IMG/VR virus record: IMGVR_UViG_3300008261_000396
Location: 1 to 53,205 of that record
Reading direction: 5' to 3' (one strand)
Length of the DNA stretch: 53,205 bases
Source of the DNA: a virus
In this document: piece by piece, positions 6,881 through 53,205 of the stretch
How positions within the stretch are numbered: the first letter of the stretch is position 1
Layout: each line of letters starts with the position of its first letter
Translations under genes and position numbers: made by a program
Notes under the pieces: generated by a model
The model's input: only the letters and a program-made list of their open reading frames with translations
Databases searched by the model: none
Told to the model about the DNA's origin: nothing

Positions 6881-6890
6881 GATTTTTTTG

Positions 6891-6898
6891 TATATTAT
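6891..6898 (+). promoter_or_regulatory. TATATTAT motif upstream of the fibre gene
   Basis: TATATTAT directly follows a T7 run in the 34-base spacer 6881-6914 and ends 16 bases before the ATG at 6915. It is one of four spacer copies of the octamer. A promoter role is inferred from repetition and position. Confidence 0.35.
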
Positions 6899-6914
6899 AT
6901 TAATAAGTAAAACT

Positions 6915-8684: not shown

Positions 8685-8697
8685 TAATACATAAACA

Positions 8698-9321: not shown

Positions 9322-9327
9322 TTATAT

Positions 9328-9867
9328 ATGGAAACTTGTAATAAATGTAATATTTGTAATTATGTAAAATGCAATTGTGTGGAATCAACACCACCAGTTG
9401 TAGATTGCCCTACACCAAATAAGTGTGGTGACAAAGAAATGTTTACATCTGATTGTTTTGACTTTACAAGTTCTCCTATCAAGTGTGGAAACAAAAGTGT
9501 TATATATGCAAATAATACTCTTACTCAAGCATTATCAAATGTAGTTGAATTTTTGTGTGATAAGAAATGTAAATTGGATGTAACAATTAGTAATACAAAT
9601 CCTTTTGAATTAACAGCAAATGTTGCAAACGGTGTTGCACCTTATACATACTTGTGGAGTTCACCATCAAGTGGTTTTGTTGGACATAATACGGGGGGTG
9701 TTGTTAATAATCAAACTGTTACATTTGCACCTACTGAAAATTCATTTCTCAATGGTACACAAACTTATAATGTGAATAGAACAATATTTATGGTTACAGT
9801 TACAGATGCAAATGGTTGTACTCAAGAAGCTTATTATAGATATGTTAGTAAATCATCAATAACTTAA
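9328..9867 (+). CDS. Virion protein: anchor module plus SprB/PKD-like domain (paralog 2)
   Basis: This 179-residue protein starts with a CxxC-rich head (METCNKCNICNYVKCNC), followed by the shared anchor (DCFDFTSSPIKCGNKSVIYANN-LTQALSNVVEFLC) and one beta domain. That domain contains GVAPYTYLW at about residue 102 and VTVTDANGCTQEAYY at about residue 156. GxxPYTYxW and VTDxxGC are the two hallmarks of the SprB repeat, which is abundant in gliding and adhesion proteins of Bacteroidota. This suggests an Ig-like fold and a Bacteroidota host. The gene begins six bases after its paralog and ends five bases before the next, clearly one transcript. Confidence 0.6.
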   Translation: METCNKCNICNYVKCNCVESTPPVVDCPTPNKCGDKEMFTSDCFDFTSSPIKCGNKSVIYANNTLTQALSNVVEFLCDKKCKLDVTISNTNPFELTANVANGVAPYTYLWSSPSSGFVGHNTGGVVNNQTVTFAPTENSFLNGTQTYNVNRTIFMVTVTDANGCTQEAYYRYVSKSSIT

Positions 9868-9872
9868 TTTTT

Positions 9873-29817: not shown

Positions 29818-30462
29818 ATGGCAACATATATACAATCATCATCAGGAATATATAAAATCATAAACATTGTGAACAATAAAATATATATTGGTTGTGCTTC
29901 AAATATAAGAACAAGAAAAAATGGTCATGTGTATGATTTAAGAAAAGGTGTTCATAAAAATGATTATTTACAAAAAGCTTGGAATAAATATGGAGAAGTT
30001 AATTTCAAGTTTGAAGTTGTTGAGATATGTGATATTAAACTTTTACATGAAAAAGAACATTTTTGGGTAAATTATTATAATTGTTTAGATAGAACTAAAG
30101 GTTATAATTTAAAACCAACAGATCCTAAAGGTTGTTCAATTCACTCAGAAGAAACAAAAGAAAAATTAAGACAAGCTAATAAAGGTAAAAAACCTTCTCA
30201 AGCATGTATTGAAGCTGGTAAAATATATAATGCTTCAGAAGAATGTAAAATGAATTTAAAAGAAGCTAGAAAAAAATTAAAAGATGTAGATTTTTATAAA
30301 GTAAATAGTGGTAAAAGAAAAAGAATAAAAAATACACTTACTGGTGAAATTTATGAATCAGTTAGAATAGCTTCTGAACAGTTGAATATACCTAAATATG
30401 AATTATCTAGAAGACTTTTAGGTAAAAGAATAAATAATACAAATTTAATTTACTTATTATGA
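29818..30462 (+). CDS. GIY-YIG homing endonuclease
   Basis: This 214-residue protein has GIY at residues 10-12 and YIG at 23-25, then Arg31/Arg33 and His37. A later Glu in HEKEHFWVNYYN matches the catalytic Glu of the GIY-YIG nuclease fold. The middle (SEETKEKLRQANKGKKPSQA) matches a NUMOD3-like DNA-binding element. The C-terminus (GEIYESVRIASEQLNIPKYEL) resembles a NUMOD1-type helix-turn-helix. This domain order is typical of free-standing homing endonucleases of phages, which cut intron-less or homologous alleles and spread by repair. It has no structural role and interrupts the cargo operon, with a 60-base A/T-rich leader (29758-29817) and a 4-base overlap with the next gene. Its target is unknown. 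Confidence 0.88.
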   Translation: MATYIQSSSGIYKIINIVNNKIYIGCASNIRTRKNGHVYDLRKGVHKNDYLQKAWNKYGEVNFKFEVVEICDIKLLHEKEHFWVNYYNCLDRTKGYNLKPTDPKGCSIHSEETKEKLRQANKGKKPSQACIEAGKIYNASEECKMNLKEARKKLKDVDFYKVNSGKRKRIKNTLTGEIYESVRIASEQLNIPKYELSRRLLGKRINNTNLIYLL

Positions 30463-36300: not shown

Positions 36301-38200
36301 TAAAGACAGTGTTCTTTATGAAAAGTATGCAGGAATATTTATAGAAGCTGCTCGGTTATCTCAAAAGAAACCAGCTGGTGACCCTGCTACAGAGAAACAA
36401 AAGCTGGATGATGAGTTAACAGATCTTGCAAAATATAAAAATGATGAGTTAAGAGTTGCAGCTCAGGATTATGACCAATCTTTTATTGATGAAGTTGGTA
36501 TGTCAGTACAAGAAGCAACTGCAAAAAACCAAGATGTTGAAGAATCAAATGCTCAATTAGAAATAGATCAAAAAGCTGCAACAGAAAAAATTGGTAAGCT
36601 TCAGAACTTATTAGAACTAGTAGGTAAAGATCCTATTGACTCAAATGAAATAGTAAAACTTTCTGATGAATTATTAAATAAAGGTGAGTTAGAGTTAAAT
36701 GCTGATGAGATAGATCCTGAAGCTATGGGTGCTATAACATCCCGTAAGTTTAAGAAAGCTGACCCGGATACTATAAATGAAGCAGTTTTTACAGTATATG
36801 TTTTATCTGAAAAATTCCCTACACTATTAGCTGATAAAATTGCTGAGCAAAAAGAAATACTTAAAAAACAAAAAGAGTCTTTGATTGATATTGAAGGTAC
36901 TAAAAGTTTTAAAGTAAATGCAGAAAGAGTAGCTCAAATAAATGAAAGATATACAGCTTTAGAAAATCAGATACTTAACAAGTATAAAGAAAAAGGTGTT
37001 GACAAATCTACTGTAGATGAGTTTACTCCACAAATGGGTTATGCTAATTTTCCAGAAGATTTGCAGTCTCAGATTGATACTGAATTCAATGCTTATTTGA
37101 CTAATGAACTTGAGATGGATCCAAAAAGTTTGATGGATACTAACATCAAAAAATATGAGGAGATTAGACAAAACTGGATTGAAAAAGAAGGTATAGAGTT
37201 ACTTAAAAAATATAATGAGCAAGTAAAAGCAGAGGGTGCAGCAAGAGCAGAAGCTTTGACCAAACCTCCTGTACTAACTTCTAGAATTTTTAAGAACATA
37301 AAAATTGAGGCTAGCATGCCTACAGGAACATTGAATGTTATCCTAGATAAAATGGAAGCAACATTGAAGAGTAAAATCTTTAATGATGGGGCTACTGAAT
37401 TTAAACTTTCAGAACAAGATATCAATGAAATCAATGAAGATGTTCAGAAACTTAAAACCTTCCTACAGTACAAACAAGGAAAGTTACAACCTGTAAGTGT
37501 AGCAGAAAAAGCATTTAATAGTTTTAGAAAAAATGTTCTAGCTAGACAAGATGAACTTGAGGATGTATTTGATGAAGATGGAAACAAGATAGGTAGAAAG
37601 TTTGCAGGAGATCCTGATTCAAAACTAACCACAAGAGCAACTAATATTTCTGACGGTATTGCTTCTGAATTATCTGATGAAACAAAACCAGGTTATTCAG
37701 ATGAGAATGTTGACAAAATAGTAAATGTGTTTTTTGGTGTGTATAATGATCATATTAAAAAAGGTGATCCAGATGCATTTAACAAAGCTTGGGAAGCATT
37801 TTCTATTGCAGCCAGAGATTCATATAAACAGTTGAACACAGAAGATAAAAAAGCTAGAATAAGAGCTTCTTTAGAAAAAAACACAACTGAAGAAAACTTT
37901 AGAAAGCTTATTGGTAAAGAGGCATTCTCAAATAACTCAGAAGCTGGTACTAATCTTGATGCTGCTGTAAGAACATTCTTTACTATAGATGATAATACTG
38001 GTACTTGGAAGTCTTTCAAATACAGTGACACTATTGAAATTGAAGGTAAAGAAACTAAGATTTCAGACATCATGAGTGAGACAGCTTTTGATAAAATGTT
38101 TGGAATTAGAGGTATTGTTACAAGATTTAGAGAAAGTTTAACTGCTCAAAATTATATACCATTAACAAACAATGTAAAACTGTTTGATAAAAACTTATGA
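33359..38200 (+). CDS. Large virion cargo protein with hydrophobic segments
   Basis: This 1613-residue protein is typical of the large proteins encoded upstream of the crAss polymerase. Residues about 195-235 are Gly/Ala-rich and hydrophobic (SYSAGILLEGAVEGAMVSGA, IGAATGG), with further short apolar helices, so the N-terminal third could insert into a membrane during ejection. About residues 455-500 contain NLMEGIQEISQEALASAVEK, a conserved-looking amphipathic block. The C-terminal two thirds are highly charged and helical, with likely coiled coils. No catalytic motif is visible. It ends in an ATGA overlap with the next gene. Possible roles are an ejected pilot protein or a polymerase partner. 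Both are inference. Confidence 0.65.
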   Translation: MAKTIINSGSGLDLKNASVANKVININDATAGITPNKPAIATKSDNPVKDLNDHVQGVIQRQKMLQTTLRDDNEYGKTFTFDNSPSSASFKARYKGYGQETYNRIGFDPDVNNESIYNQNTTTFDDMGRWLKHSAAPMLGLGFLAPVHSYGKLLGSGDVGADRQEAKDYEYYNSIGYSSRGGIGGFATNLLNSVSYSAGILLEGAVEGAMVSGAIGAATGGELNLLGGALGGMKALTKVPSALFQSAKNIGKISKSLQALKNINNAKNFWKTAGTIGQKAGEFINPFENTLDAVKLLKETDDVSKLARTARTAGAFWHDVMGINMALSEGRLEGGFSEQNVYNKLYNDYYAKHGKAPSIELQQEMMLDSKKAGFKNTLYNTGLVFYSNKVAFPSITRAKFLKGAPRLNFGKVVGEVGNEFQIMFNPADDVAKATYTKEAISLKNSIKALKSPKQWGKLGLNYFKGNLMEGIQEISQEALASAVEKYYVDSFYNPSVRGYRYGMAAMFDGLDKQLNAQGGETFASGFLMGSLLEGPSKMFKFGTKNFSRIFKDKAVNEEYVKQREAQANAIVNSLNNMHKNAKYFFDPRINNYSNQMLTAKMVDNPDNVETKVLKDAEFAAFQSSVQTALRTGTYDTFLDNLKEYKNTTPEELEEAWSLEPGQGEKALQNIDKAITSAKETAARYKMAKDKFKDYVDPQQYKEGSPEYTAAIIYNKAYEESINSLVFLQSTFDNHIDRLGKMYNQLDKLKSISSSPFSNFDVITDAVKLNEQINYLKQDIESGETSTLPEAVAQVRQKRELLKALDRFQKAQDSNSGENLNLLLNAINEGNTTPEMNEYFNSFLNLLETIAGSEENKVTLRNEIDKLGGHEDLFSSLIDIHFLKHEQLNTAKYINILADPAGFRESVNRNFDWMKRMYDNRKEYYKDIVNQEITNVERNEILNTLAADGIFVDLDEFAKFVEDPENYLPEYFIDTTKEMIINKDSVLYEKYAGIFIEAARLSQKKPAGDPATEKQKLDDELTDLAKYKNDELRVAAQDYDQSFIDEVGMSVQEATAKNQDVEESNAQLEIDQKAATEKIGKLQNLLELVGKDPIDSNEIVKLSDELLNKGELELNADEIDPEAMGAITSRKFKKADPDTINEAVFTVYVLSEKFPTLLADKIAEQKEILKKQKESLIDIEGTKSFKVNAERVAQINERYTALENQILNKYKEKGVDKSTVDEFTPQMGYANFPEDLQSQIDTEFNAYLTNELEMDPKSLMDTNIKKYEEIRQNWIEKEGIELLKKYNEQVKAEGAARAEALTKPPVLTSRIFKNIKIEASMPTGTLNVILDKMEATLKSKIFNDGATEFKLSEQDINEINEDVQKLKTFLQYKQGKLQPVSVAEKAFNSFRKNVLARQDELEDVFDEDGNKIGRKFAGDPDSKLTTRATNISDGIASELSDETKPGYSDENVDKIVNVFFGVYNDHIKKGDPDAFNKAWEAFSIAARDSYKQLNTEDKKARIRASLEKNTTEENFRKLIGKEAFSNNSEAGTNLDAAVRTFFTIDDNTGTWKSFKYSDTIEIEGKETKISDIMSETAFDKMFGIRGIVTRFRESLTAQNYIPLTNNVKLFDKNL

Positions 38201-40566
38201 GAATTTCATTAAAAAATGCTACACCATTTGTTACTGATGTAACTGTTGGTGGAGAAAAAAATAGGGATACTGAGTTAGTACCATTAGTACCAAATACTGC
38301 TAAGTTATTTAATACACTTGAGCTTGAATACTTACCTGATGTGGAAGGTAAGGGTATCACTATGTCTGTACCTACTATTGAAAGTAGTACACCTTTAACC
38401 CCTACTACAGAAGATATAGAAGCTAAAAAAGCTGACATAGAAAGAAGAAGACAAGAAGAATTAGAAGGAGAAAAATATTTTGTAAAAACTAATGCAGAAG
38501 GACTCAAAGCTGCTAAAGAATTTGTTGATAAAATCAATGCTAAATATGATGCAGAACTAGCTGCTTTAGGTAAAACTACTATAGAAACAAGTAAATCACA
38601 AATAACCACTTCAGACACATCTAAATTAACACTTAATGATAATGTAGGTAAACAAGTAGTTTTCAATGGTAGAGTTGGAACACTGATTTTACAAGATGAT
38701 GGGTCATATGGAGTTGAAGTTGATTTAGGTTTTGAGCAATCTATGGGTGAAACTTTAATAACAGCATTAGAAGGTGATTTGGCTTCTGCTAGAGGGGAAT
38801 TTGGAGATCCTGAATTAGCTGAAGAAATTCAAAAACAAATTGATGATTTACAAAAGATTAAAAAAGGTAAAGAAATATATACAGTTACTTCTGAAGGAAA
38901 GCCTGCAACTAATGGTTCTTCTGAAATTACTAGTGTTGGTTTATCTTTGATTACTCCTGTAAAAAATGTTGGTCAAATTTCTGTAATTAACAACCAAGTT
39001 ATTGATGCAGCATTTGAAGATGAGAATGAAACAATAGCAATTGTAAATGGTGTAAGGTATACTGTATCAAGAGGTCCTTCTGGTGATATAAACCAACTGG
39101 TTTATTTTAAAAATGATAAGAGAAGAGAAGACATTGATAACATCATATTTGCTATCAATACTAAAATTGCAAAACTAAGACAAAACATTACTGGTGTATA
39201 TGCAGCAAAAGCTAATCTTCAACAAAGACTTAGTGAATTAGAGAAGCAAAATGCTCCAGCTTCACAAATTAAAAAAGTAAAACAAGATTTAGCTATCTTA
39301 TCTCCTCAATCAATATTGAGTAAAATCAATAAAGGTAAAGAAGAGATTGAAAGACTTACTGCAGAAAGAGACAGTTTATCTACAGATGACAAAGTATTTA
39401 TTTATGAAGGTAATGTTAATGATGTAATATTTGCTTTAAACAGATTACCAAATTCTTTTCAGAAAAATAGCTTGGGTACTAAACCTCAAGACATAGAAAA
39501 AGAACTTAAAAAAATACATAGTTTATCAGATGCTTCACCTAAAGTTCAGGAAGAGATTACCATGATAATGCAAAAGAATCTTCCTAAAGAACTAACTGAA
39601 GTAAGACTACAAGGTATATCAGCATTAGGTAGAGGAGCTAAAAAGTTAGAAGCACTTAGAAAGGGTATCCAAAAAACAATAGATGCATTAAAAGAATATG
39701 AAACTTTTAAAATGTATAGTAATGATCCTTTTGGAGTAGCTGCTACTAATAGACAAATTAATGTATTAAAAGATTTACTTGATCACTTAGTTTTAATTAA
39801 CTTAACAGAAACAAATAGAATTGCTAAAAAACAAGATTATGAACAAGACCTTAACAAAATCTTCGGAGCAGAAACCGGAGATGAATCAAACATTGGTGTA
39901 TCTGAGATTCAAAGCCCTACCGGAACAACAACAGAGGGAGTTTCTGGAATGGAGGAAGCAGGAGAAACAAAAGAAATCCCTTTTAATGAACTCCAAAAAA
40001 TAGTTAATTCTTCTATTGATGAGCTTGCTGAACTAACTCCTGAAGTAAATAAAGCAACAGAAGCCTTTGCAAAAATCAAAGATACTATTGAGTTATTTAA
40101 TAAGAAAAAAGAGTTAATAGCTAAGATGTCCAAGAATAAACTCAATTTAGCTCAAATAGAGTCTGCATATCAAAATAGATTAGCTGAGTTAGAGAATAAT
40201 GTTGATATCAATTCATTAAAAAAAGGTGATCTTTTACAAGATGTTACTAACTTTACAGAACAAGATTCTCCTGTACAAGTAGTGGATATTAAAGAAAATT
40301 CTGTTATATTAAAGTATGGAGATACAAAAAGAGAAGTAACTGAAGAGGAACTTCAAAATAATTTTGTTAAACCTTCAAAAGAAACGCAAATGACTCAGAC
40401 AGAAAAACCATCACAAGAAACTGTAGAAGCTTCAGAACAAACTAAAACTGATGCTAAAACATTCTTTGAAAATAAAGAAACTGAAGCTTCTGATTATAAA
40501 GAAGCAAAGGAATCAAATGAAGATGATTTATTCAAAAACTTAGAAGATAACTCAAAAACTTGTTAA
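38197..40566 (+). CDS. Coiled-coil protein upstream of the virion RNA polymerase
   Basis: This 789-residue protein starts by ATGA overlap and ends three bases before the ATG of the giant polymerase protein. The N-terminal 90 residues are beta-rich. Helical regions follow (AKKADIERRRQEELEG, AELAALGKTTIE), with two small beta modules resembling SH3-like barrels: GKQVVFNGRVGTLILQDDGS and, near the C-terminus, LKKGDLLQDV...VVDIKENSVILKYG. Long coiled coils lie between. No enzyme residues were found. Position suggests a polymerase-associated or packaged cargo protein; in crAss-like phages the polymerase is made from several adjacent large proteins. I considered a frame break at the junction with the next gene but see no clear support. 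Confidence 0.6.
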   Translation: MRISLKNATPFVTDVTVGGEKNRDTELVPLVPNTAKLFNTLELEYLPDVEGKGITMSVPTIESSTPLTPTTEDIEAKKADIERRRQEELEGEKYFVKTNAEGLKAAKEFVDKINAKYDAELAALGKTTIETSKSQITTSDTSKLTLNDNVGKQVVFNGRVGTLILQDDGSYGVEVDLGFEQSMGETLITALEGDLASARGEFGDPELAEEIQKQIDDLQKIKKGKEIYTVTSEGKPATNGSSEITSVGLSLITPVKNVGQISVINNQVIDAAFEDENETIAIVNGVRYTVSRGPSGDINQLVYFKNDKRREDIDNIIFAINTKIAKLRQNITGVYAAKANLQQRLSELEKQNAPASQIKKVKQDLAILSPQSILSKINKGKEEIERLTAERDSLSTDDKVFIYEGNVNDVIFALNRLPNSFQKNSLGTKPQDIEKELKKIHSLSDASPKVQEEITMIMQKNLPKELTEVRLQGISALGRGAKKLEALRKGIQKTIDALKEYETFKMYSNDPFGVAATNRQINVLKDLLDHLVLINLTETNRIAKKQDYEQDLNKIFGAETGDESNIGVSEIQSPTGTTTEGVSGMEEAGETKEIPFNELQKIVNSSIDELAELTPEVNKATEAFAKIKDTIELFNKKKELIAKMSKNKLNLAQIESAYQNRLAELENNVDINSLKKGDLLQDVTNFTEQDSPVQVVDIKENSVILKYGDTKREVTEEELQNNFVKPSKETQMTQTEKPSQETVEASEQTKTDAKTFFENKETEASDYKEAKESNEDDLFKNLEDNSKTC

Positions 40567-40568
40567 TA

Positions 40569-43500
40569 ATGATATGTTCACTCAATGAAACTCAGCTTTC
40601 AGATTTAAGAAAAATAACATATAAAAAACTTTCTGGACTTAAACCTTCAGAAAGTTTTGATTTAAAGGTATATATAAAAGATATATACCAAAGAATTGAG
40701 AAAGCTGCTGGTGAAGAAAAAGCTTTACAATATGCTCAAATCATTCCTCTTACTATACATTTTGTGCAGGGTGATGATGAAATAAATAGCATATTAGCTA
40801 AAACTGATTTTAATCCTTCAGATATAATGAAGTTGAGAGCAGAATTTAATGACATTAAGAATGTTAAGAAATATGTTACTACACCAGTAAGAAAAAAATC
40901 TAAGAAAGAATTAAAGAGTGAGTTAGAACATGAAAACTTTCAATTAGATAATTTGGAGATTACAGATCCTGATTATTCTGTATTGGAAAAAATGGATAAA
41001 GCTAAAATTGAATATCCTAATGTTACAACATTTCAATTTGGTGAAGATAAAAATCCAGATGATCCAAATACACAAATTCAAGATGATGTTTTAGCTGAAG
41101 ATAAAAAAGTTTTTGACACAGTGATTAAAAAAATCATGAAGGCTCATAAAGAAAAAACTGTTGATCAAGACAATCCTGTTATTGGTGGTACAGAAGTTTT
41201 TTTAAAAATGATGTCTTCAGAAAGCTTTGAAAATAAGCACAAATTATCTAATCATAAAACTGTAACTGCTAAATCTTACAAAGGTGTTTTTGCTGTTGTT
41301 ACAGATATTGATGGTAATTACTTATACTTTGATGAAAATGGTAATTTAACTACTGAAGATAAAGGTACAGTTGTTTATCAGTTTATAAGAAAACCTTATT
41401 TGTTGGAAGATAAACTAAATAAAAAACAACATGCTTTGTTTATGATTTATCATAACCTTGGTAAAATGTATAAAAATACATTGGTTGCAGCAAGTAAAAT
41501 TGCAAAAAGAGTTGGTTTATCTAGTAAAGAAGTTTTAAAAAATCAAACAGAAAACATGAATGGTGTTTATAATATGCGTAAAGATATTATAGACAACAAC
41601 ACTTCATACATTACTCAAATTAATGGTGGTAGTTTTGGTATATTGAGTGCAAAAAATAAAAGAAAGATTAATGATCAATTACAAAAAACTGTAAAACTTA
41701 CAAGAGAAATTGTTAAAGATGCAAAAATTATATCAAGTACAGATTTAAGTGAAGGTTTTGCTCAATTCTTTGTTCAATATAATACTCCAATTTTTGGTGA
41801 AATAAGTATGCCTGTAAACATACAGAGGGGTAATTTTGATCAAGAACTTGCTAATAAAGTAGCTGATGTTATTACAACTAAAGCTACAAATAAAGGTAGA
41901 ACTTTGTCTGATGATGAAAGAATAGCTTACTTCAAAGTATTTTTAAATAATCAAAAAGTAAGTAAAAAAGGTGTTAAAAATAAAAATAACATTTTTTTAG
42001 ATAAAGTTGCTGGTGGACCACTTACTTTAACAATTAATGGTGAAAAGTTTGAAGGAGATGCTATCTTTACTACTGCTGTAAGAGACAAGATTGCACAGCA
42101 TTTACCAACAGCAATTAAGTTTGGTGACAAGGGTTCAATTGGAGCTAATGTAAATATTTCTAATAGCTATAAAGATAAGGGGACCTACACAGATTATGAA
42201 ATTTCTGGAGATAAGTTTAAACCTGTTGAAAAAGATTATATTGATGAAGTAGTATTGAAGTATGCAAAGCCACAATTTACTAATGAAGGTGGTTCAATGA
42301 TTTCAGGATTCAATCCTTATTTAAGTTATTCTATACCTAGTCAGTTTACAGAAGATGCGGATTCATTTTTTGATATTGCATTAGACTCAAAGACTGCAGC
42401 TCCAGTTAGGAAAAAAACTCAGGCTGAAAAGAATGAAACTGCTGAGAAAGTTGTAAAAGAAAAATCAAAAGCTGTTCAGAAAAAAAGAACTACTAAAGTA
42501 CCAGCAGCTACTGAGAATGTTGAAGTTATTATTGAGCACAATTGGTTTACACCATTTAAGAATGATTTGTCAGAAGAAGATGCTAACGGTTTTAATTTAG
42601 ATAGAAGTAAAGCTTTAGATAATTTTTTAGATAAGGTTTTCACTACTGAAGCTGACAAAGCAGCAGCAGAAACTTGGTGGGCTAACTCTCCTTTGAGTAA
42701 GTATATTAGCTTAAACAGAATAACTCAGATTGTAAACTCAAATGCATTTGCAACATTTACAGGAACTGGTATCACACTTTATGAAGGTGATGGTGGTACT
42801 GCTGTAGATTTATACCATGAAGCATGGCACGGATTCTCTCAGTTATTTCTAACAAGAGATGAAAAGATTAAGTTATACAATGAATTAAAGGGCCAACCAA
42901 AGTGGGCCAATAAATCATTCTTTGATATTGAAGAAGATATTGCAGAAGACTTTAGAGATTATGCAAGAAGCAGAGGTAAAAAAGAAGCACCTAAAGGATT
43001 TTTGGGTAAAGTATTTCAGAGAATTTACAACTTCCTACAGAACCTCATAGGCAGAGTAAGCAAACAAGACTTAGCTACAAGACCAAGAGACATTGAATCA
43101 GTAAAAGAATTGTTTGACAAATTGTACAGAGCTTCTGAGAATCCAGAGCTATTACAAGATATGCAACCTTCTACTGACAACATGATGTTTACTCAGTTGA
43201 ACAGAGCTAAAGCTATTACTTCTGTAAAAGATGTTGCTACTAAGTATGAACCATTTGATTCTGCTGAATCTTTGAAAGTTGTGAATTATTTGGACAGCTT
43301 AATTCCTGACATTTTTAATTCTGTAAACCAACAAAGAAATAGTTCTTCTGCACCAGTTAGAGTATTACAAACTAATGCAAATAGAAAACATTTATATAAG
43401 CTTTTAGAAAAGAAAATATCTGAAAGATTTAATCAATTAAGAGAAGACTTTGCAAAAACTGCAGCTGAGGGTGGTGATATTGATACATTGGAATTAAATC

Positions 43501-46500
43501 AACTTCCATTTTTAGGAAGAATGCTAGATAATTTTGGGAATGTTGATGCAACAATTGACGGTAAAGATCAGAAAGGTGTTATTGCTTTTCACATGCAAAA
43601 TTCTAGATTCAAAATTTTAGCAAATAAATTTGTTGAGTTAGAAGAAGATCCAACTGACATAAATAATTCTAGAATTGTTAGACTTGATGGTGGTAATATT
43701 TTCTCTTCAAGAGAAGCAGCTAGTCAAGAGACTAAAACTATTTTATCCAGTATTTACAAAGTAGACAGAAATAAAACAAAAGTTACTGTAAATGATGAGG
43801 GTAAACAAGTTTTATCTATTGAATATGAAGTAGACCCTCAAACAGGTTTATACATGCTCTTAGATGAAAGAGAAATGTGGAGTAAAGTTGCTAAAGTATT
43901 AGCAGGTTCTTTTGTAAACATTACCAAAACAGCTGATGATGTATTAGCAGAAGCAAGAGTACAAAGAACAGATTTTGATAGAACTAAAGTTTTAAAAGAT
44001 TGGGAAATAAATTTTCTTACTGTTGCTGACTCTAAATTTATTGTTGAAAATAAATCAGGGCAAAGAGTATTAGATTTAGACAAGTTTGTAAAACATTTTA
44101 AGAATAACATAAATTCTAAAAATGTTCTTGAGTTCTTAAATGCATTAGGTATTGTGATGGATACATCAAATCCTACAATTGCTAGTGTTGTAGCTGATCC
44201 TAACTTTGTAAATAAGTTTGCAATTGGGCACATCTTTGATTCTTTAGAGCATATAAATAAAATGTATGATCCTGAAAAATTTACTTTTTTAAGAAACCCT
44301 CTTGCATATTTAAAAACAAGTTTGCCTAAGACATTAGATCCTGGTCAAAAATTTGATTCTTCTTCAAGAATAAAAGAACTTGCAAATATACAAGTAAGAT
44401 TTTCAGATAAGTATTCTAACTTTAGTGCAGTTAGTCCTGAAGGAAATAGAGTATGGGAGCATTTCTTGGATAATACTTTTACAAGAATTATGACTTCTTT
44501 AAATCATACAAAATCTTGGCAAGAACTTACAAATCCTGATGCTGATCCAAATGGTTTGTTCAGACATATGCGTTACTTAGCATATGACAACAATACTTAC
44601 ACAAGACATTCTGTATTACTAAAATCATTATTTAATGATTTGTTGGCTGTAAATAATCCTGGTGGTAAAAAAGATAACACATTGGTAATTCAAAATGTGG
44701 CGGGAACACAGTTAATTGACACTAAAACTAATAATCAACAAGGTGTTTCTACAGCATCAATGGATGCTACAAGTAAATACTTGCAAGAGATCCATACTAT
44801 GTTGATGAGTGGTGTAGAAGAGTTCATGAGACATGCTTCTAAACAAATGTCACAAGGTATTGTATTAAAAAATGGTCTTAAAACTTATGATAATAAAAAT
44901 GCTAAAAACTTATATGTTGATATAGAGAAGTTTTTACCAACTACAAACTCTGGTGAAGACTATGCATTTGATATTTTATCTGGATACTTGACTGGTGAAG
45001 TAAATAGAATTTTTAGATTTAGTTCTGATTTAGAAAAATATTCTCAATTTACAGGTTATACAAGAACTGTAAATAGAAAAACAGGAGAAGTTGTAATGGC
45101 TGGACAAGCTCTTACTGCTTTTGAAGATGTATTATCTAAAGATACTCAAGCAAAAATATATGCTATAGTAGATAAAGCTGTTGCTGATAAACAATCTGAT
45201 TTTGATTTCTCAGATATATATGATGACAACGCTAAGCTAACAGAAGAGATAAGAAAAGATGTTGCTAAGTATTTTAACAGTATAACAACTGAGTTGAAAC
45301 AAAGACTTGATAAAACAAAGTTTATTGATCCTGCTTTAAGAGGTAGAGTTGAAAACAAAGGTGTTGAACTTACAGTAGATGAATCTGATACAACACTGAT
45401 GAAAGCATATGCTTACAACTCTTGGATTCACAAGTTTGAAACTGCTATTCTTGGTTATGGAGACTTAGCACAATACAATCATGCTAAAGAAGAATTCCAT
45501 AAAAGAAATGCTGGTTTTGGTTCTGGTGGTTTAGGCTTTGCTTCTGATTTAAAGTCAAGAAGTTTTGTAAATAAAATGCCTAAGTTATTTAATAAAATAG
45601 CACCAAGTAAACCATTTGATGGTACTTTAACTACAGCAATCATAAAAGAAAGAGTTATAGAAAAGTCTGTGTATTATGATGAGTACTATGATGCTCTTGT
45701 AAAAGACTATACAAAAAGATTTGGTGATAAAACTAAGGCAAAAGAATTAGCAAAAACTGCTTTAAAAGAATATAATAATATGAAGATTGGTGATGGTCAA
45801 GGCCACATTAGTTTTGAATCATATAGAATACTTAAAAATCTTGAAGGTAACTGGTTACCAGAACAAGAAGAGTTGTATAAAAAGTTAGCTAATGGTGAAG
45901 AAGTATCTGTAGAAGATGTTGTACATTATTTTCCTCCATATAAATTACAGTATTGTGGAGCTATGGAAACTACAGGCTTACCTGTTACTTCATTCCATAA
46001 ATTCTCACTTGCTCCAATTATACCAGGAGTAGCTAAAAAAGGTACACCACTATATGATTTGCACCAAAAAATGATGCTTAATGATGTAGACTATGTTGTA
46101 TTTGAAACAGGTTCTAAAGTTGGACATTTAGGAACTGGTGATGAAATATATGATGAAAATGGTAATATTCTTATGGATGAACCATTTACAAAAAATGTAA
46201 TCTTCACAGAGTTCTTAAAGAATCAAACAGAAGTTAACTCTGAGTATAAAGGTAAATCTATTTTTTCTACTCAGATGAGAAAGTTAGTTTTAGATAACTT
46301 GTATGAAAATGGTGTAATCAATTCTCCTGATGAGAAAGATGTAGTATCACCATTAGTAAAAAGATATCTTGATAATGTATCAGATTATACTGAGTTAGTT
46401 AAATTAGAATTATTAGAAGAAATTGGTTTTGATGAAACTTCTGACGGTGAATACAAAGCAAGAGACAAAGAAAGTATAGGTAAATTATTATCACTTGTTA

Positions 46501-49500
46501 GAAATAACTTAGATAGAGAAGAATCTTACAGTGATGAAATGCTCAACTTTATTGATGCTCTTGATAGTGGTGAGTTATTACATGATTTATCATTACACCC
46601 AGAAGCATTAAAAATTGAGAAGCTTTTATTATCTCTGATTAACAAAAGAGTTATCAAACAAAAAGTAAAAGGAGAACCACTTGTACAAGTATCTTCTGCT
46701 TTTTATGAAAATAACCTTACAGAGTCTCCTAATTTTAGAAATGCAACTGATGCAGATAAGAAAAAATGGGTAGGTAGTAACTTACTTCCTACTTATCATA
46801 AGAAGGCGAATGGTAAAACTGCAGCAATGAAGGTTATGATTGCATTACAGGGGGACTATGTTAACTTGTTGAATCTTGAATATAAAGGGGCAACTATTGG
46901 AGATATTGATACATTAAACAAAGCAATCAAAGATGATAAATGGTTAGATGCAAATGATAGTGCTAACAGAAAAGCAATAACTCTTGTAGGGGTTAGGATT
47001 CCAGTTCAGGGTCTAAACTCTATGGAGTTTATGGAAGTTTATGAGTTCTTACCTCCACAAGCAGGTAATATAATCATTCCTCCAGCTGAGATAGTTGCTA
47101 AGTCAGGGGGTGACTTTGATATTGATAAACTTACAATCTTTATGACCAACATAGACATAGATGGTAAGCTTAAAGAAAGAACCTATAAAAATACTGCGGA
47201 GCTAAAAGCTTCTCTACAGAACATCAAAGATAATGAGGATGAATCCATAACTAAAGCTTTCAAACAACAAAAAGCAGGAGTAGAGAATGACTTGATGAAT
47301 GATATCAAAGAAATACTTGAGCTTCCACAAAACTTTGTTTCTCTTATTACACCAAATGGTACTTTCTTATTGAAAGATATTGCTGACAAACTAGCTGCAG
47401 ATGTGATGGAATATGATCCATTCAAAAATTACATGACTGATACAACAACAGAACCTGAAAAAGGTAAGAAAATTATCAGTGCAACAAGAGTATTAGAACC
47501 TCTTTATAACTTATATAAACATGAATCTAATATTGTTGGTAAGAAAACATTAGGTTTAGGTGCTATAGAAAATACAATGAATGTATTGTTAAACTCTATT
47601 GGAGCCCTTATGCCAGAAACATATACCAATGCTTATTCAAAAGTAACAAGAACCACTAATATAGGTTTAAGACATAATGTAAGGAAAGTTGATGGTACGG
47701 ATAGAATATCCCTATCTAACTTATATGATGTTAACAATGTGAATAAAATAGCTGATGTATTCTCACAAGCAATGAACGGCTGGGTGGATGTTGAAAAAGA
47801 TGCATGGATTTTCTTTATCCAAGGTAACTATGAGGTAGCACCTATATTATTATATTTAATTAAAGCTGGTGTTCCTGTTAAAGAAGCTATTTACTTTGTA
47901 TCACAACCATTAGTAAGAGAATATGTAGATGAACAGCGTCTTGCTAAATCTACATTTGCTTCTGTATTAGGAAAAGCTCCAGAAGAAAAGACATTTGTGA
48001 AGTATCAATCAGCTTCTAATATCATTAATAAATATTTCAATCCTTCTGTATTACCAGCTAAAGGTGAAGCATATGTTAGATTTGAAACAGGACGTAAGTT
48101 ATTTGATAAATTAATGAAGGATAGAAAAGATAAACATTTTACAGAAAAAGAAATGTTACAGTTAATACAAGATTCTAAAAAGAATAATAATTTTAAATCT
48201 TCTGACTTATCATTAACTATGTTCTTACACTACTTGGATATTGAAGACCAGATTAAGGGTATTACACAGGTTAAAATGAACTCTAATCCAGATACTAATA
48301 CTAAGTCAGTATTATCTGATATTGAGACATCAGAAGCAAGATTAGAAAACTTAGAAAATAATCCTGAGTTACAACCAATAATATCTGCTTTGATGAGCAA
48401 CTCAGTTATTAGCTCATTCTTTAATAACAAACTAGCATTGTCTTTAGCTGCACCATTGTTTAAATTAAGATACAATGATGCAATCCGTAGATTTATTAAA
48501 TCTGAAGATGATTCCAATACTTTAAGCAAAAATATAAAATCTACATTTGGTGAAAGTGGTAGAGATAATTATTTGAATACTTTCAAAAATGATTTAGTAA
48601 GTTACATTTTTCAAAATAGATTGGTTAAAACAGACATTAAAAAAGGTTACATATCTTATGATGCAAAAGAATTACCAAGTAAACAGATGCTTTCTGATAA
48701 ATTTGGAGCTTTTGTAAAAACAAATAAAGATGGTAGCAAAACTTTGTTTTATAATCTTAAAAATTTAGAAAAAGAATATACATCAGGTGTATGGAAAGAA
48801 GATGCAGAGAAACCAAACCATTATTCACAGTTAGGATTACATCCTGTTCCAGCAAATACATTTACAATTGCTAAAGGAAACAACACACAAGCTTATGCTA
48901 GATTTGTAATGGAAAGAGAGTATTTAAGATCTATTTATCCAATTGCAGAAACAGGTTTAGAAAAAACAGCTTATGAAGAGTTTCTAGCAAACAGAGCACT
49001 TGATAATACTTTTAATGTTAATCATTTATTTAGTGATCCAAAAAATGCTTTTGCTGTAAGATTATATGACATAATCTTGACTAACCCTAAGCTTGTAAAT
49101 AAATTTGATGTGTTATCAAAACTAGAGCTTGATAATAATACTCAAAATACTATGTTCAATCTTAACTTGATTGACCGTGATATTGACAACATCAAAGCAA
49201 ATATTTACACTAAAAATTTAACAGACTTAGCAGATCCTGTTTTGTTAAAAGCATTAGCTAATGAATTAAGTTTGAGTGACCAAGATATAGAAAACATTTC
49301 TTACTTATTCTCTAGACTTCCTTTGTTTGCATACTTGCAATCAGGTATCAATAAAACTAAATCTAACTTAGTTCCTTATGTAAGTACAGAATCATTCTTA
49401 AACATTATGGATGATGCTGTCAAAGACTTTACTGAACTTCTTTCTAATCCGGATAAAGCTGAAAGAGTATTAAGAGATTTTTATGACAAGTTTAATGCTC

Positions 49501-51893
49501 AGAATAGTTATAAAAATAAAGACAAAAACAGATTTAAGAACTATTTTACTGATATTGACTTTAATAAAGTAGGTACTGGAGGAGCTATACAAGTAAAAAA
49601 AGGAACTGTTGAAAAAACAAATAATATTATTTTAAGAAGTAATTTAAAGGCAAATCCTGCAAGTTTGTATTTATTTGGGGATAATGATGTAAGAAAAGGT
49701 TTAGGAGGTCAAGCAAAAGAAATGCGTGGTGAACCAAATGCTATTGGTATATCTACTAAAAAATTACCAGCAAGAGGTGAAGAAGCATATAAATCAGATG
49801 CTGAACTAGAAGAAAACAAAAAAATCATTACTGAAGATATAAACAAAGCAATTGCTGAATGGAATACAGGAAAGTATAACAAACTTATTATTCCACAAAT
49901 GGGTGTTGGTTTAGCTGAGTTACCTACAAGGGCTCCAGAAACATATAAGTTTTTACAACAAGAACTTAAAAGATTAGAAAATCATGTTGCTCAACCAGCT
50001 ACTAGTGTTAATGAATTAACTGAAGAAGATGTTAAATGGTTGCGTGCTAATAGAAAACTAATTGAAACAACATATAAGAGTAGTAATCTTTTTGGAGCTA
50101 GAGACACTGAATTAAAAACTCCTTTATTCTTTGATAATAATAAAACTAAAGTTATTCGTATTGATCCTGATCCAGCTGATACTTCTAGAATTATATTTGA
50201 AAAAGATTCTAAAACATGGATGGTTAAACTAGAAGAAAAAGATAATAAAGTAAGTCCACGTTTATATGAATGGAAAGATGTTTATGGTAAAGGAGAATTT
50301 TCATTTTATGCAACTGATGGTTCTACTAAGAGTGATTTAGAAAACATAAATAAAAGTGGATTAATGAATTTAATTAATCAGCTTTATGAAGATACAAATA
50401 TTCCTGATCCAGGAGATAAACAACTTATAGTATCAAATGCTCTTCAACAAAAATATGGCTTAAAAAGAACTTATAAAGATATAATTAATGAGTTAAATCC
50501 TACTATTCAACCAACTACTGAAGCTGTAGATGTTAAAGTAATTTCAAAAGATTATGGTGTTGTTGTAGCTGAGACTAAACCAAACAATACAAAAACTAAA
50601 GAGTTTGTAAAAATTATACAATCACAAATTAAAGCACAAGCATACCAAGAAAATAAAACAGGTAATAAAATGTTCATGTATGGTCTTAGATGGACTAGAA
50701 AAGCAAAAGCAATTAAACCAATAGTTAACAAAAGTTATGCAAATGGTGGTTTACCAACAACAGATGCTAAAGCAACTGATGGATATGTATATGATACTTT
50801 GGACCAAAATGGTAAACCATTAGCACCTTTATCAGATCTACAACCTATAATTAATGAGATTCAAAACGCATTAGGTATTGATATGTCTAACTATGATGCT
50901 GTAATTGGTAACATTTATTTACCCGGACAAAGAATTCAGACACATAGAGATACTACTGAAAGTTTAAGTGCTAGAAATTATCCTGTTGTAGTGTATACAA
51001 TAGGTGCAGGTAATGCTATTAATATTTATGAAAATTTAAAAAATCCGGGTTCGGCTAGTTTTGCAAGTGATAAAAAAATATCTATACCTACAGAAAACGG
51101 AACTATCTATACATTTGGTATGGATGGTAAAGGAAGATTTGAATTAGGTCACGATACACCACATGCAGTTCAAAAAGGAGATACTCAAGAACCAATTACT
51201 ATGCCTGATGGTACAGTAATTAAAGATTATACAATTACTCTTACATTCAGAAGAGCTGCTGATTTAGAACAAGGTATGCCTACAGCTCCTGCTAAAACTA
51301 AAGTAATATCATCAGCTATTGAAGCTGTAGAAGAACAAACTAATGATCTTATTACTACACCAGATCCTAACATCTTTTTGTATGATGATTCAAAAGATGA
51401 CAGTGCTGCTTTCTACAAAAAATTAACCAGTACTAATTCTACAGTAGGTTTTGTTTATAATGCAACCAAGTTTGAAATAGATAATAATAAAGATCTTCCT
51501 GGACAAGGTTATTTAAGATTAGTATCCAAAGATACTGCCTTACCTTTTGTTACAAGTTTGACTAGTAATTTTGATAACTTTAGTAACTTAGCACCTGAGA
51601 ATTATCAAATTGTGAAAAACTATTTTGATAGAAAAATTCAGGAGCTTAAAAATGCTAAAGACTTAGGTAACAAAATAGCACTTCCTAAAGCAGGAATAGG
51701 TGATGCTAAGAAAATGCCTCAAGAATTATTTGTATATTTAAGTAAGAGGTTATTTGAAGAGTTAGGTTATTTAAATCCTGGTTCTTCAGCTTACAAAGAC
51801 ATAACTGAAGTAATAAGTAATAAACAAGGTATATCAGATGATGAAATTCTTGCATCACTAGGTTTTGAATCTGATCCTTTTAACTGTGTATAA
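40569..51893 (+). CDS. Giant fusion: zincin, virion RNA polymerase, macro-like and AlkB-like domains
   Basis: From the ATG at 40569 this encodes 3774 residues. Domains in order: HEAWH at residues 750-754 with a downstream EEDIAEDF (zincin-like peptidase motif), and the RNA polymerase core. There, R2143-IPVQGLNS...EFLPPQAGN-IIIPPAEIVAKSGG leads to DFDID at 2182-2186. This mirrors the beta-prime pattern ending NADFDGD and matches the crAss-like virion RNA polymerase loop. Next is a macro-like (DUF7831-like) domain at about 3015-3136 (FGDND, GLGGQA, PQMGVGLAELP). An AlkB-like 2OG-Fe(II) oxygenase at about 3346-3564 has H3459-x-D3461, H3532 and R3561/R3562. A weaker second macro-like domain spans about 3625-3733. 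The polymerase presumably enters the cell with the DNA and transcribes early genes. The extra domains suggest repair or counter-defence. The TTG at 40560 was rejected as start. Confidence 0.85.
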   Translation: MICSLNETQLSDLRKITYKKLSGLKPSESFDLKVYIKDIYQRIEKAAGEEKALQYAQIIPLTIHFVQGDDEINSILAKTDFNPSDIMKLRAEFNDIKNVKKYVTTPVRKKSKKELKSELEHENFQLDNLEITDPDYSVLEKMDKAKIEYPNVTTFQFGEDKNPDDPNTQIQDDVLAEDKKVFDTVIKKIMKAHKEKTVDQDNPVIGGTEVFLKMMSSESFENKHKLSNHKTVTAKSYKGVFAVVTDIDGNYLYFDENGNLTTEDKGTVVYQFIRKPYLLEDKLNKKQHALFMIYHNLGKMYKNTLVAASKIAKRVGLSSKEVLKNQTENMNGVYNMRKDIIDNNTSYITQINGGSFGILSAKNKRKINDQLQKTVKLTREIVKDAKIISSTDLSEGFAQFFVQYNTPIFGEISMPVNIQRGNFDQELANKVADVITTKATNKGRTLSDDERIAYFKVFLNNQKVSKKGVKNKNNIFLDKVAGGPLTLTINGEKFEGDAIFTTAVRDKIAQHLPTAIKFGDKGSIGANVNISNSYKDKGTYTDYEISGDKFKPVEKDYIDEVVLKYAKPQFTNEGGSMISGFNPYLSYSIPSQFTEDADSFFDIALDSKTAAPVRKKTQAEKNETAEKVVKEKSKAVQKKRTTKVPAATENVEVIIEHNWFTPFKNDLSEEDANGFNLDRSKALDNFLDKVFTTEADKAAAETWWANSPLSKYISLNRITQIVNSNAFATFTGTGITLYEGDGGTAVDLYHEAWHGFSQLFLTRDEKIKLYNELKGQPKWANKSFFDIEEDIAEDFRDYARSRGKKEAPKGFLGKVFQRIYNFLQNLIGRVSKQDLATRPRDIESVKELFDKLYRASENPELLQDMQPSTDNMMFTQLNRAKAITSVKDVATKYEPFDSAESLKVVNYLDSLIPDIFNSVNQQRNSSSAPVRVLQTNANRKHLYKLLEKKISERFNQLREDFAKTAAEGGDIDTLELNQLPFLGRMLDNFGNVDATIDGKDQKGVIAFHMQNSRFKILANKFVELEEDPTDINNSRIVRLDGGNIFSSREAASQETKTILSSIYKVDRNKTKVTVNDEGKQVLSIEYEVDPQTGLYMLLDEREMWSKVAKVLAGSFVNITKTADDVLAEARVQRTDFDRTKVLKDWEINFLTVADSKFIVENKSGQRVLDLDKFVKHFKNNINSKNVLEFLNALGIVMDTSNPTIASVVADPNFVNKFAIGHIFDSLEHINKMYDPEKFTFLRNPLAYLKTSLPKTLDPGQKFDSSSRIKELANIQVRFSDKYSNFSAVSPEGNRVWEHFLDNTFTRIMTSLNHTKSWQELTNPDADPNGLFRHMRYLAYDNNTYTRHSVLLKSLFNDLLAVNNPGGKKDNTLVIQNVAGTQLIDTKTNNQQGVSTASMDATSKYLQEIHTMLMSGVEEFMRHASKQMSQGIVLKNGLKTYDNKNAKNLYVDIEKFLPTTNSGEDYAFDILSGYLTGEVNRIFRFSSDLEKYSQFTGYTRTVNRKTGEVVMAGQALTAFEDVLSKDTQAKIYAIVDKAVADKQSDFDFSDIYDDNAKLTEEIRKDVAKYFNSITTELKQRLDKTKFIDPALRGRVENKGVELTVDESDTTLMKAYAYNSWIHKFETAILGYGDLAQYNHAKEEFHKRNAGFGSGGLGFASDLKSRSFVNKMPKLFNKIAPSKPFDGTLTTAIIKERVIEKSVYYDEYYDALVKDYTKRFGDKTKAKELAKTALKEYNNMKIGDGQGHISFESYRILKNLEGNWLPEQEELYKKLANGEEVSVEDVVHYFPPYKLQYCGAMETTGLPVTSFHKFSLAPIIPGVAKKGTPLYDLHQKMMLNDVDYVVFETGSKVGHLGTGDEIYDENGNILMDEPFTKNVIFTEFLKNQTEVNSEYKGKSIFSTQMRKLVLDNLYENGVINSPDEKDVVSPLVKRYLDNVSDYTELVKLELLEEIGFDETSDGEYKARDKESIGKLLSLVRNNLDREESYSDEMLNFIDALDSGELLHDLSLHPEALKIEKLLLSLINKRVIKQKVKGEPLVQVSSAFYENNLTESPNFRNATDADKKKWVGSNLLPTYHKKANGKTAAMKVMIALQGDYVNLLNLEYKGATIGDIDTLNKAIKDDKWLDANDSANRKAITLVGVRIPVQGLNSMEFMEVYEFLPPQAGNIIIPPAEIVAKSGGDFDIDKLTIFMTNIDIDGKLKERTYKNTAELKASLQNIKDNEDESITKAFKQQKAGVENDLMNDIKEILELPQNFVSLITPNGTFLLKDIADKLAADVMEYDPFKNYMTDTTTEPEKGKKIISATRVLEPLYNLYKHESNIVGKKTLGLGAIENTMNVLLNSIGALMPETYTNAYSKVTRTTNIGLRHNVRKVDGTDRISLSNLYDVNNVNKIADVFSQAMNGWVDVEKDAWIFFIQGNYEVAPILLYLIKAGVPVKEAIYFVSQPLVREYVDEQRLAKSTFASVLGKAPEEKTFVKYQSASNIINKYFNPSVLPAKGEAYVRFETGRKLFDKLMKDRKDKHFTEKEMLQLIQDSKKNNNFKSSDLSLTMFLHYLDIEDQIKGITQVKMNSNPDTNTKSVLSDIETSEARLENLENNPELQPIISALMSNSVISSFFNNKLALSLAAPLFKLRYNDAIRRFIKSEDDSNTLSKNIKSTFGESGRDNYLNTFKNDLVSYIFQNRLVKTDIKKGYISYDAKELPSKQMLSDKFGAFVKTNKDGSKTLFYNLKNLEKEYTSGVWKEDAEKPNHYSQLGLHPVPANTFTIAKGNNTQAYARFVMEREYLRSIYPIAETGLEKTAYEEFLANRALDNTFNVNHLFSDPKNAFAVRLYDIILTNPKLVNKFDVLSKLELDNNTQNTMFNLNLIDRDIDNIKANIYTKNLTDLADPVLLKALANELSLSDQDIENISYLFSRLPLFAYLQSGINKTKSNLVPYVSTESFLNIMDDAVKDFTELLSNPDKAERVLRDFYDKFNAQNSYKNKDKNRFKNYFTDIDFNKVGTGGAIQVKKGTVEKTNNIILRSNLKANPASLYLFGDNDVRKGLGGQAKEMRGEPNAIGISTKKLPARGEEAYKSDAELEENKKIITEDINKAIAEWNTGKYNKLIIPQMGVGLAELPTRAPETYKFLQQELKRLENHVAQPATSVNELTEEDVKWLRANRKLIETTYKSSNLFGARDTELKTPLFFDNNKTKVIRIDPDPADTSRIIFEKDSKTWMVKLEEKDNKVSPRLYEWKDVYGKGEFSFYATDGSTKSDLENINKSGLMNLINQLYEDTNIPDPGDKQLIVSNALQQKYGLKRTYKDIINELNPTIQPTTEAVDVKVISKDYGVVVAETKPNNTKTKEFVKIIQSQIKAQAYQENKTGNKMFMYGLRWTRKAKAIKPIVNKSYANGGLPTTDAKATDGYVYDTLDQNGKPLAPLSDLQPIINEIQNALGIDMSNYDAVIGNIYLPGQRIQTHRDTTESLSARNYPVVVYTIGAGNAINIYENLKNPGSASFASDKKISIPTENGTIYTFGMDGKGRFELGHDTPHAVQKGDTQEPITMPDGTVIKDYTITLTFRRAADLEQGMPTAPAKTKVISSAIEAVEEQTNDLITTPDPNIFLYDDSKDDSAAFYKKLTSTNSTVGFVYNATKFEIDNNKDLPGQGYLRLVSKDTALPFVTSLTSNFDNFSNLAPENYQIVKNYFDRKIQELKNAKDLGNKIALPKAGIGDAKKMPQELFVYLSKRLFEELGYLNPGSSAYKDITEVISNKQGISDDEILASLGFESDPFNCV

Positions 51894-51895: not shown

Positions 51896-53205
51896 ATGGT
51901 TTGTGAAGTTAAAGAAAATTCTATTAAACATTTAGAAAGAGAAAAAGCTACTAATAGTGAAAGAAAAATAATTGATACAGCAAAGTTTAATGAGCTCAAT
52001 GGAAGTCTCACTAAACTTGCTGTAGACAAGTATGGCTTAGAAACAAATGGTCAAATGCTTTTTAGTAATATTCAAATAAAAGCAGAACCTAATGATTCTC
52101 TATTTGAAAAACTTCAAGAACTCAAAGTTAGATATGATGAAAGACAAGCAATAGCTGATAATGCTGTTGTACCAAAAGAAGATTACAATAATGATGTACA
52201 AGAATTATTTAATTCTAATCCTGAATTAGCTAAGATAGGTACACCACAACAATATACAGAGTATATAAAAACTATATTTCCTGATAGTCAAATAAAAGAT
52301 ATTGTTTACCACGGTACTGATGTAGAATTTGAAAAATTTATGTTGGAATATTTAGGTGTAAATACAAAAGCTTCTGATACAGATAGAGGTTTTGCATTTT
52401 CTAATAATAAAAATGTAGCAAAAACATATGGAAAAAATATAAAATCTGTAATAATAAATGCACAACATATTGAAAATGTACCACCAGTATCAGAACAATA
52501 TGATGATATTTTAAAACCTGAGTTTTTAAGTTTAAAAGAACAAATAACAAGTTTAAAAAAAATAATTGCTGAACAAGAAAAAATTAACAGTATAAATACA
52601 GTAGATCAACTTCCAAATTCATTCTATGTATATTCAGAAAAAATCAAATCTTTTGTAAAAATTGTAAAAGAGAATGGTTCTTTTTATGCATATATTAATA
52701 ATGAAAAAATAAATGATAAATTAAATAACAAACAAGTTTTATCTTTATTTGAAACAACTAAAAAAAACACAAAAGATTTAGTTAAACAATTGAATTTATT
52801 AACTGATGAAAATACTGCATTTATTTATAAAGACATAATAGATAACAGAAATATAGAAAGCACAGTTAGAACTAATGTATATTTTGCTAAACCTAATCAA
52901 ATTTACACATTGGGTTCTAAACAAGATATAGAAGGGTTTAAACAGTTTGTTAAAGGTGTTTCTAAACAAGCCATGTTTATGAAAACTCCTGAAGTAGGGT
53001 ATTCATTAAAATTAGTTACTGCATTGATGAACTTATCTTCTTCAAAAGAAACTAAAAGAACAAGGAAGTATGGTGAACAAACAGAACCTGAAAGATTAAC
53101 AATCAGATTAAACACAAAAGAAAAACCATACCTAGAAGATAACATTAGAAAAACACTTAATAACAAAGGTGTTACAAATCAACAAGTTGATTTTGTATTT
53201 GACTA
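51896..53205 (+). CDS. ADP-ribosyltransferase-like polyvalent protein (partial, runs off window)
   Basis: The ATG at 51896, two bases behind the giant gene, opens a frame that stays open to the window end (436 codons visible). Residues about 138-180 read IVYHGTDVEFEKFML...GFAFSNNKNVAKTYG. This matches the start of ADP-ribosyltransferase-type folds of polyvalent phage proteins: YHGT, then a Phe/Ser beta strand and A-x-x-Y. Later parts are helical and charged, with KKIIAEQEKINS and KYGEQTEPERLTIRLNTKEKP near the end. It probably continues as another virion cargo protein. The catalytic Glu cannot be located confidently. The tight spacing shows co-expression with the polymerase. Confidence 0.6.
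   Translation, partial: MVCEVKENSIKHLEREKATNSERKIIDTAKFNELNGSLTKLAVDKYGLETNGQMLFSNIQIKAEPNDSLFEKLQELKVRYDERQAIADNAVVPKEDYNNDVQELFNSNPELAKIGTPQQYTEYIKTIFPDSQIKDIVYHGTDVEFEKFMLEYLGVNTKASDTDRGFAFSNNKNVAKTYGKNIKSVIINAQHIENVPPVSEQYDDILKPEFLSLKEQITSLKKIIAEQEKINSINTVDQLPNSFYVYSEKIKSFVKIVKENGSFYAYINNEKINDKLNNKQVLSLFETTKKNTKDLVKQLNLLTDENTAFIYKDIIDNRNIESTVRTNVYFAKPNQIYTLGSKQDIEGFKQFVKGVSKQAMFMKTPEVGYSLKLVTALMNLSSSKETKRTRKYGEQTEPERLTIRLNTKEKPYLEDNIRKTLNNKGVTNQQVDFVFD

Follow-up and report, generated by a model that had tools for sequence, protein, structure and literature searches.

The giant cargo gene of a crAss-like phage encodes, with support from sequence, profile and fold comparisons, a crAss RNA polymerase of the virion type joined in one chain to an AlkB-like dioxygenase, and the dioxygenase lies in a slot whose contents are exchanged among relatives at a short, translated DNA linker. 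The DNA analyzed here (the window) is a 53,205-base IMG/VR virus fragment of metagenomic origin. We consider it likely that the proposal holds as a whole, namely that a crAss-like cargo polymerase carries a payload slot, fills it with linker-bounded cassettes, is injected, is coupled to its neighbors through cysteines and brings in an AlkB unit that would act early. The gene and the landmarks of its polymerase backbone are as follows.

40569..51893, + strand: giant cargo gene, crAss-like virion RNA polymerase polyprotein, 3774 aa (open frame and 6VR4 profile)
42816..42830, + strand: HEAWH zincin-like motif of the backbone, residues 750-754 (conserved)
45600..48030, + strand: region of the RNA polymerase core from which the profile was built (match to 6VR4)
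47112..47126, + strand: DFDID catalytic motif, residues 2182-2186 (conserved in relatives)

The single frame of 3774 residues that an earlier, sequence-only reading had placed at 40569-51893 is open throughout, and a crAss-like virion RNA polymerase forms its backbone (residues 1 to about 3006). With 19 sequences of the polymerase region built into a profile, hmmsearch matched 6VR4 (6vr4_A), the solved virion polymerase of Cellulophaga phage phi14:2, at an E value of 4.3e-20. Both backbone motifs picked out in that reading recur in the relatives: all three Asp of the DFDID polymerase loop at residue 2182 are invariant columns in 19 relatives, and the HExxH motif (HEAWH) at residue 750 is kept in nearly all of them, in a part of the backbone that has no Pfam match. 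The crassvirus muzzle protein (PF25731) was found in the ORF at 14327-19735 of the same window (E 4.2e-21). Because of the 6VR4 match and the presence of the muzzle protein, we regard the phage as crAss-like and its giant gene as the polymerase, in agreement with the identity originally proposed. A DNA-level search of a phage collection gave nothing close to the polymerase, and an MCP search was empty. The relative L021 contains about 183 extra in-frame bases at gene base 3346 (residue 1116) and is otherwise 99.95% identical to the window; judging from the two sequences, the difference is a recent in-frame indel. Elsewhere, the virion gene block includes a run of Cys-rich proteins (window 5288-11348), one of them with a weak SprB-repeat match.

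Beyond the polymerase core, the C-terminal part of the gene contains the following features.

49588..51325, + strand: exchangeable slot (flanking DNA matches L022 at 97% as far as 49587 and at 98.6% from 51326 onward, interior replaced)
49620..49961, + strand: module 1, DUF7831 domain (a linker-flanked module of L168 has 85% aa identity)
49989..50009, + strand: linker copy GCTCAACCAGCTACTAGTGTT (AQPATSV), 2 mismatches to the 21-base consensus (scan)
50013..50504, + strand: module 2, 'MID' domain (a linker-flanked module of L114 has 90% aa identity)
50505..50528, + strand: decayed linker (IQPTTEAV; sequence comparison)
50529..51293, + strand: module 3, AlkB-like 2OG-Fe(II) dioxygenase, residues 3321-3575 (alignment, profile, fold)
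50943..50951, + strand: HxD metal ligands H3459 and D3461 (invariant in alignment)
51150..51152, + strand: third metal ligand H3528 (invariant in alignment)
51249..51254, + strand: R3561-R3562, expected 2OG-binding Arg (invariant in alignment)
51324..51890, + strand: conserved C-terminal domain, divergent DUF7831-type, ending in Cys3773 (iterated profile)

The backbone aligns with that of close relatives to about residue 3006 and again from residue 3586, leaving residues 3007-3585 as the slot. In L022, which shares 96.9% DNA identity with the window up to residue 3006 and 98.6% from residue 3586, the slot holds a P-loop kinase-like module instead (AAA_33, E 1e-18). The corresponding position contains a HEVKH domain alone in L027, a HEVKH domain and a further domain resembling a SLOG module by eye in L026, other domains in L063 and L068, and no module in L023. 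Peptidase-like and SLOG modules are thus among the alternatives to the kinase and AlkB. The AlkB domain follows the polymerase core in most carriers but lies on the N-terminal side, at residues 574-804, in L086. A higher polymerase identity does not bring a higher AlkB identity (Spearman -0.17): AlkB and polymerase identities are 97% and 36%, respectively, between L016 and L018, 84% and 52% between the window and L038, and 32% and 69% between the window and L032. We therefore rejected the view that AlkB is fixed to the polymerase and inherited vertically with it, since near relatives are without it and the identities are decoupled; on these comparisons, the modules move independently of the polymerase. 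The architecture that had been taken as fixed is one state of a swappable slot, visible only with relatives at hand.

The modules are separated by an in-frame linker, TQ[PS]STSV, all copies of which are encoded by nearly the same 21 bases, giving the translated site ACTCAACCATCTACTAGTGTT. We scanned IMG/VR with ACWCAAYCWTCTACTAGTGTT as the query and obtained 65 stretches with 85 exact sites, every one of them in frame (85/85), and 63/65 of the reading frames were homologous to the giants. A scan of GTDB bacterial and archaeal genomes for the linker gave 0 sites. Among linker copies from giants fetched without this DNA as query, 23/25 had the canonical codons at all six positions, against 0.9% per copy expected from codon use. 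Sequence information drops directly outside the 21 bases, and DNA similarity begins at or near the linker in 66/67 pairs of related modules. In the L045/L148 contig, five exact copies stand in series, with an AlkB-type domain, a NADAR domain and further domains set apart by them, and one module (NPLVEAG) follows the polymerase in L045 but precedes it in L083. In the window, the linkers show partial decay, and no linker borders the DUF7831 module on its left. The same modules adjoin linkers in other phages: DUF7831 in L168, MID in L114 (85% and 90% aa identity, as above) and AlkB in L038, where the linker comes after a copy with 84% aa identity.

Recombination between linker copies is the simplest account of the exchange, and it would preserve the reading frame because every copy lies in the same phase. 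The linker could also have been kept for a protein or RNA reason, as a flexible spacer, protease site or translation signal, since it encodes a hydrophilic Ser/Thr/Pro spacer between domains and decayed peptide variants (QPATSV, QPTTEAV) persist; however, codons are fixed as well as residues, information falls away just beyond the 21 bases and the DNA breakpoints coincide with the linker, and we judge this explanation to be unlikely. On that explanation, the exchange of modules would come from ordinary random recombination combined with selection for spacer-flanked domains. The linker may nevertheless have a role at the protein level alongside one in recombination. Assembly of metagenomic contigs into chimeras is a very improbable source of the mosaic architectures: all linker-bearing relatives are uncultured contigs and a repeated 21-mer could mislead assembly, but the same architectures occur in independent assemblies (L035/L038, L005/L006, L014/L016), a 21-base repeat is far below read length and the frames remain open across the junctions. 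Homing elements were rejected as the cause of the domain pattern, as neither of the homing-type genes seen lies at a linker. A GIY-YIG/NUMOD3 homing endonuclease gene is present at window 29818-30462, among virion and cargo genes, and a similar-looking 241-aa ORF interrupts the cargo block of L017, away from the linkers.

The two domains flanking the MID and AlkB modules had been described as macro-like. Pfam assigned residues 3018-3131 to PF25176 (DUF7831) with an E value of 1e-35, and the C-terminal domain (residues 3586-3774) was picked up by iterated DUF7831 profiles, by which the domain before AlkB and the C-terminal domain are one family, DUF7831. The first copy gave a confident model (pLDDT 89) that matches other viral DUF7831 proteins (E 5e-12); compared with solved structures, its best PDB match had an E value of 0.5, and the matches listed included no macro domain. 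We rejected the macro fold for these domains because the first-copy model, the one searched, had no macro match, and both domains are better described as DUF7831-type. Standalone DUF7831 proteins occur in many alphaproteobacterial phages and also in giant viruses. In PHROGs, the DUF7831-like modules match phrog_2072; besides this, there was a DprA-like match and little more.

The HxD motif, second His and RR pair are common to all 20 related AlkB domains, with H3459, D3461, H3528 and R3561-R3562 invariant. The AlkB-like site of the sequence-only reading is thus retained in H3459, D3461 and the RR pair, and corrected in its third ligand: H3532 was rejected because the position varies across relatives, and the invariant H3528 takes its place. 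Pfam 2OG-FeII_Oxy_2 matched residues 3398-3536 with an E value of 3e-6 and 27.9-30.3 bits, against a curated cut-off of 31.2; among the tails of relatives, 22/76 match this family at E 0.01, the best at 2e-13. The AlkB profile reaches rice ALKBH1 (5xeg) at E 2e-4. An AlphaFold2 model of residues 3000-3774, the region singled out earlier for structure prediction, was confident over the AlkB and C-terminal domains and contained the AlkB jelly-roll fold. Foldseek returned E. coli AlkB as the first match to the model (E 2e-10, TM-score 0.72 by target length), and all top matches of the unit were AlkB. From sequence and model together, the unit is predicted to be a genuine AlkB-fold dioxygenase. 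Altogether, the frame, the motifs and the AlkB-type site of the original observation were confirmed, and its H3532 ligand and macro-like domains were not; of its interpretation, the polymerase-AlkB fusion is supported and the macro assignment and fixed architecture are not.

It is plausible, and in keeping with the fellow slot modules (NADAR, ADP-ribosyltransferase, polynucleotide-kinase-like and SLOG), that AlkB edits or repairs nucleic acid early in infection. Known AlkB relatives include RNA and protein demethylases, a kinship that would also suit action on host RNA or protein for cell takeover rather than protection of phage nucleic acid. This alternative gains from the fellow payload ART-PolyVal, whose superfamily is best known for host-protein modification (PMC9503650). 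Against it, the nearest folds are DNA/RNA repair AlkBs and NADAR enzymes, likewise fellow payload, reverse guanine ADP-ribosylation (PMC11125620), and we consider a host target rather unlikely, if a serious competitor. We think it improbable that the AlkB copy is a decaying, inactive passenger in a slot that merely tolerates extra domains; near relatives without AlkB, and some without any module (L023), would fit such a view, but 20 copies, diverged in sequence by as much as about 70%, all retain HxD, H and RR.

Modules identified so far comprise AlkB, DUF7831, NADAR, ART-PolyVal, cpYpsA/SLOG and AAA_33 kinase domains, and a wider set of tails contains RecD-like helicase and Phage_30_3 domains. 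The cargo gene that follows the giant has, around 52301-52600, an ART-PolyVal-like domain that scores under the Pfam cut-off (E 1e-4) and resembles the module after the linker in several polymerase genes. PADLOC gave no match on the tail of the window and weak matches only on other modules, mainly a NADAR and a kinase module. A payload theme shared by the modules, AlkB included, of nucleic-acid modification or repair against host defense could equally be right or wrong; such a common role is a guess, because several modules, MID among them, are without known function. Polymerase proteins in gut crAss records bear NADAR (DUF1768), DprA-like and helicase labels, AlkB not being among them, which suggests that fused extras are general in the order. 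The gut polymerase genes concerned (cr118_1, cr130_1, cr126_1 and others) are annotated as DNA helicase, DprA-like or DUF1768 protein, and as they are named after their extra domains, the polymerase is hidden in the public annotation of these phages.

We further examined the cysteines of the giant and its neighbors, located as follows.

38197..40566, + strand: upstream cargo gene, 789 aa, sole Cys the last residue (NSKTC) at 40561-40563 (ORF)
40575..40577, + strand: N-terminal Cys3 (M-I-C), one of three Cys in the giant
51885..51887, + strand: C-terminal Cys3773, one of three Cys in the giant
51896..53205, + strand: next cargo gene, cut by the window end, starting M-V-C (ORF)

The giant has three Cys only, at residues 3, 1796 and 3773, and the next cargo protein starts M-V-C at 51896-51904. 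All 76 of 76 distinct relatives have a Cys within the last five residues (chance about 0.4% each), and at junctions with a neighboring cargo gene the end of the first protein and the start of the next both have one in 127/129 cases. Of the two exceptions, the upstream protein in L083 has its Cys slightly further in, and L051 may reflect start-codon choice. Genes inserted between the polymerase and the last cargo gene encode Cys at both ends, and 54 complete giants (197,764 aa) contain 107 terminal and 14 internal Cys. In crAss001, gp47, whose gene lies on the opposite strand, has a single Cys (2339 of 2341), gp49 has one (5), and gp50 has Cys 5, Cys 2404 of 2412 and one internal; gp67, gp66 and gp65 of phi14:2 follow the same terminal-Cys rule. 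Where gp47 is fused to the polymerase (cr118, cr1, cr53) the N-terminal Cys is missing, and where the polymerase is fused to the last protein (cr271) the C-terminal Cys is missing; some gut phages have a few internal Cys besides. The virion polymerase of phage N4, which is without such a partner, has zero Cys. As the pattern marks exactly the chain breaks, it points to chain ends joined covalently or through a metal, most likely by a head-to-tail disulfide; disulfides are known in the crAss001 tail (PMC10172136). Cargo-type neighbors with one terminal Cys each were also seen in Leptolyngbya phage Lbo-JY46 (L177, 22355-35261), which was reached via its muzzle protein and not by the polymerase query: a 1552-aa protein whose sole Cys is its last residue adjoins a 2748-aa protein whose sole Cys is residue 4.

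We propose that a phi14:2-type virion RNA polymerase backbone carries a payload slot near its C-terminus, here occupied by DUF7831, the MID domain and an AlkB-type dioxygenase, and that such modules would be mobile protein-domain cassettes bounded by the in-frame 21-base linker. Recombination at linker copies in co-infecting phages would insert, delete or replace modules with the frame unbroken. Judging from its homologues, the giant protein would be carried inside the capsid and leave it together with the genome: crAss001 gp47, gp49 and gp50 are present in virions (PMC10172136), and the record of phi14:2 gp66 is annotated from MS/MS. Its terminal Cys probably couple it to the cargo proteins before and after. 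AlkB would then act before phage gene expression, most likely as one counter-defense payload among several, clearing lesions or base modifications from early RNA or from the DNA as it enters. On its boldest reading, the gene block would contain two undescribed devices, a joint claim to which we give slightly less than an even chance. In the first, the translated site would let phages gain, lose and exchange whole enzyme domains within a protein that they inject; in the second, a cargo train, disulfides from the C-terminal Cys of one protein to the N-terminal Cys of the next would allow the polymerase-block proteins to be ejected in a single string, which the reducing cytoplasm of the host would take apart. 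In the open-access literature, we found no mention of the linker or the Cys pattern.

crAss-like phages are dominant in the human gut and common elsewhere, and their injected proteins beyond the polymerase are barely known. Because the slot has a recognizable DNA boundary, injected enzymes could be listed by finding the linker and reading the content between copies. The resulting list, with NAD/ADP-ribose and nucleic-acid enzymes and families without known function, offers candidates for counter-defense tests, and the terminal-Cys rule makes a sharp and cheap prediction of how several very large proteins could thread one tail in order. Judged from sequence comparison, in-frame swapping at a short codon-conserved linker looks like a means of trading injected weapons or shields that has not been described before.

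Several known systems share parts of this arrangement. Integron gene cassettes form an array of exchangeable units bounded by a repeated site, as here; in contrast to integrons, the units are protein domains in one ORF and the site is translated. Boundary sequences of lambdoid phages allow genes or domains to be traded between otherwise unrelated phages. Domain exchange between otherwise unrelated phages is likewise shared with phage protein mosaicism (Smug et al., 2023, PMC10684548), whereas here, unlike in either case, one codon-conserved 21-mer edges many domains within one frame. Polyvalent proteins (Iyer et al., 2017, PMC5512222; Iyer et al., 2022, PMC9503650) are also large multidomain proteins thought to be injected, and the giant resembles them in combining several unrelated enzyme domains in one large phage protein and in the ART-PolyVal domains of the cargo genes. 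AlkB is unmentioned in both papers and crAss in the text of 2022, and we found no conserved DNA linker or in-frame cassette array in either. With the AlkB family (E. coli AlkB, rice ALKBH1), the phage unit has in common the HxD..H..R site and the jelly-roll fold, with the TM-score of 0.72 to E. coli AlkB; in contrast to these enzymes, it sits inside an RNA polymerase chain and has a sequence identity to them of about 20%. The closest parallels, phi14:2 gp66 (6VR4) and crAss001 gp50, share the DFDID loop, the profile match, the block of muzzle and cargo genes and the single giant chain, but phi14:2 gp66 has 2180 aa, whereas the giant described here, at 3774 aa, also includes AlkB, a payload slot and two DUF7831-type domains.
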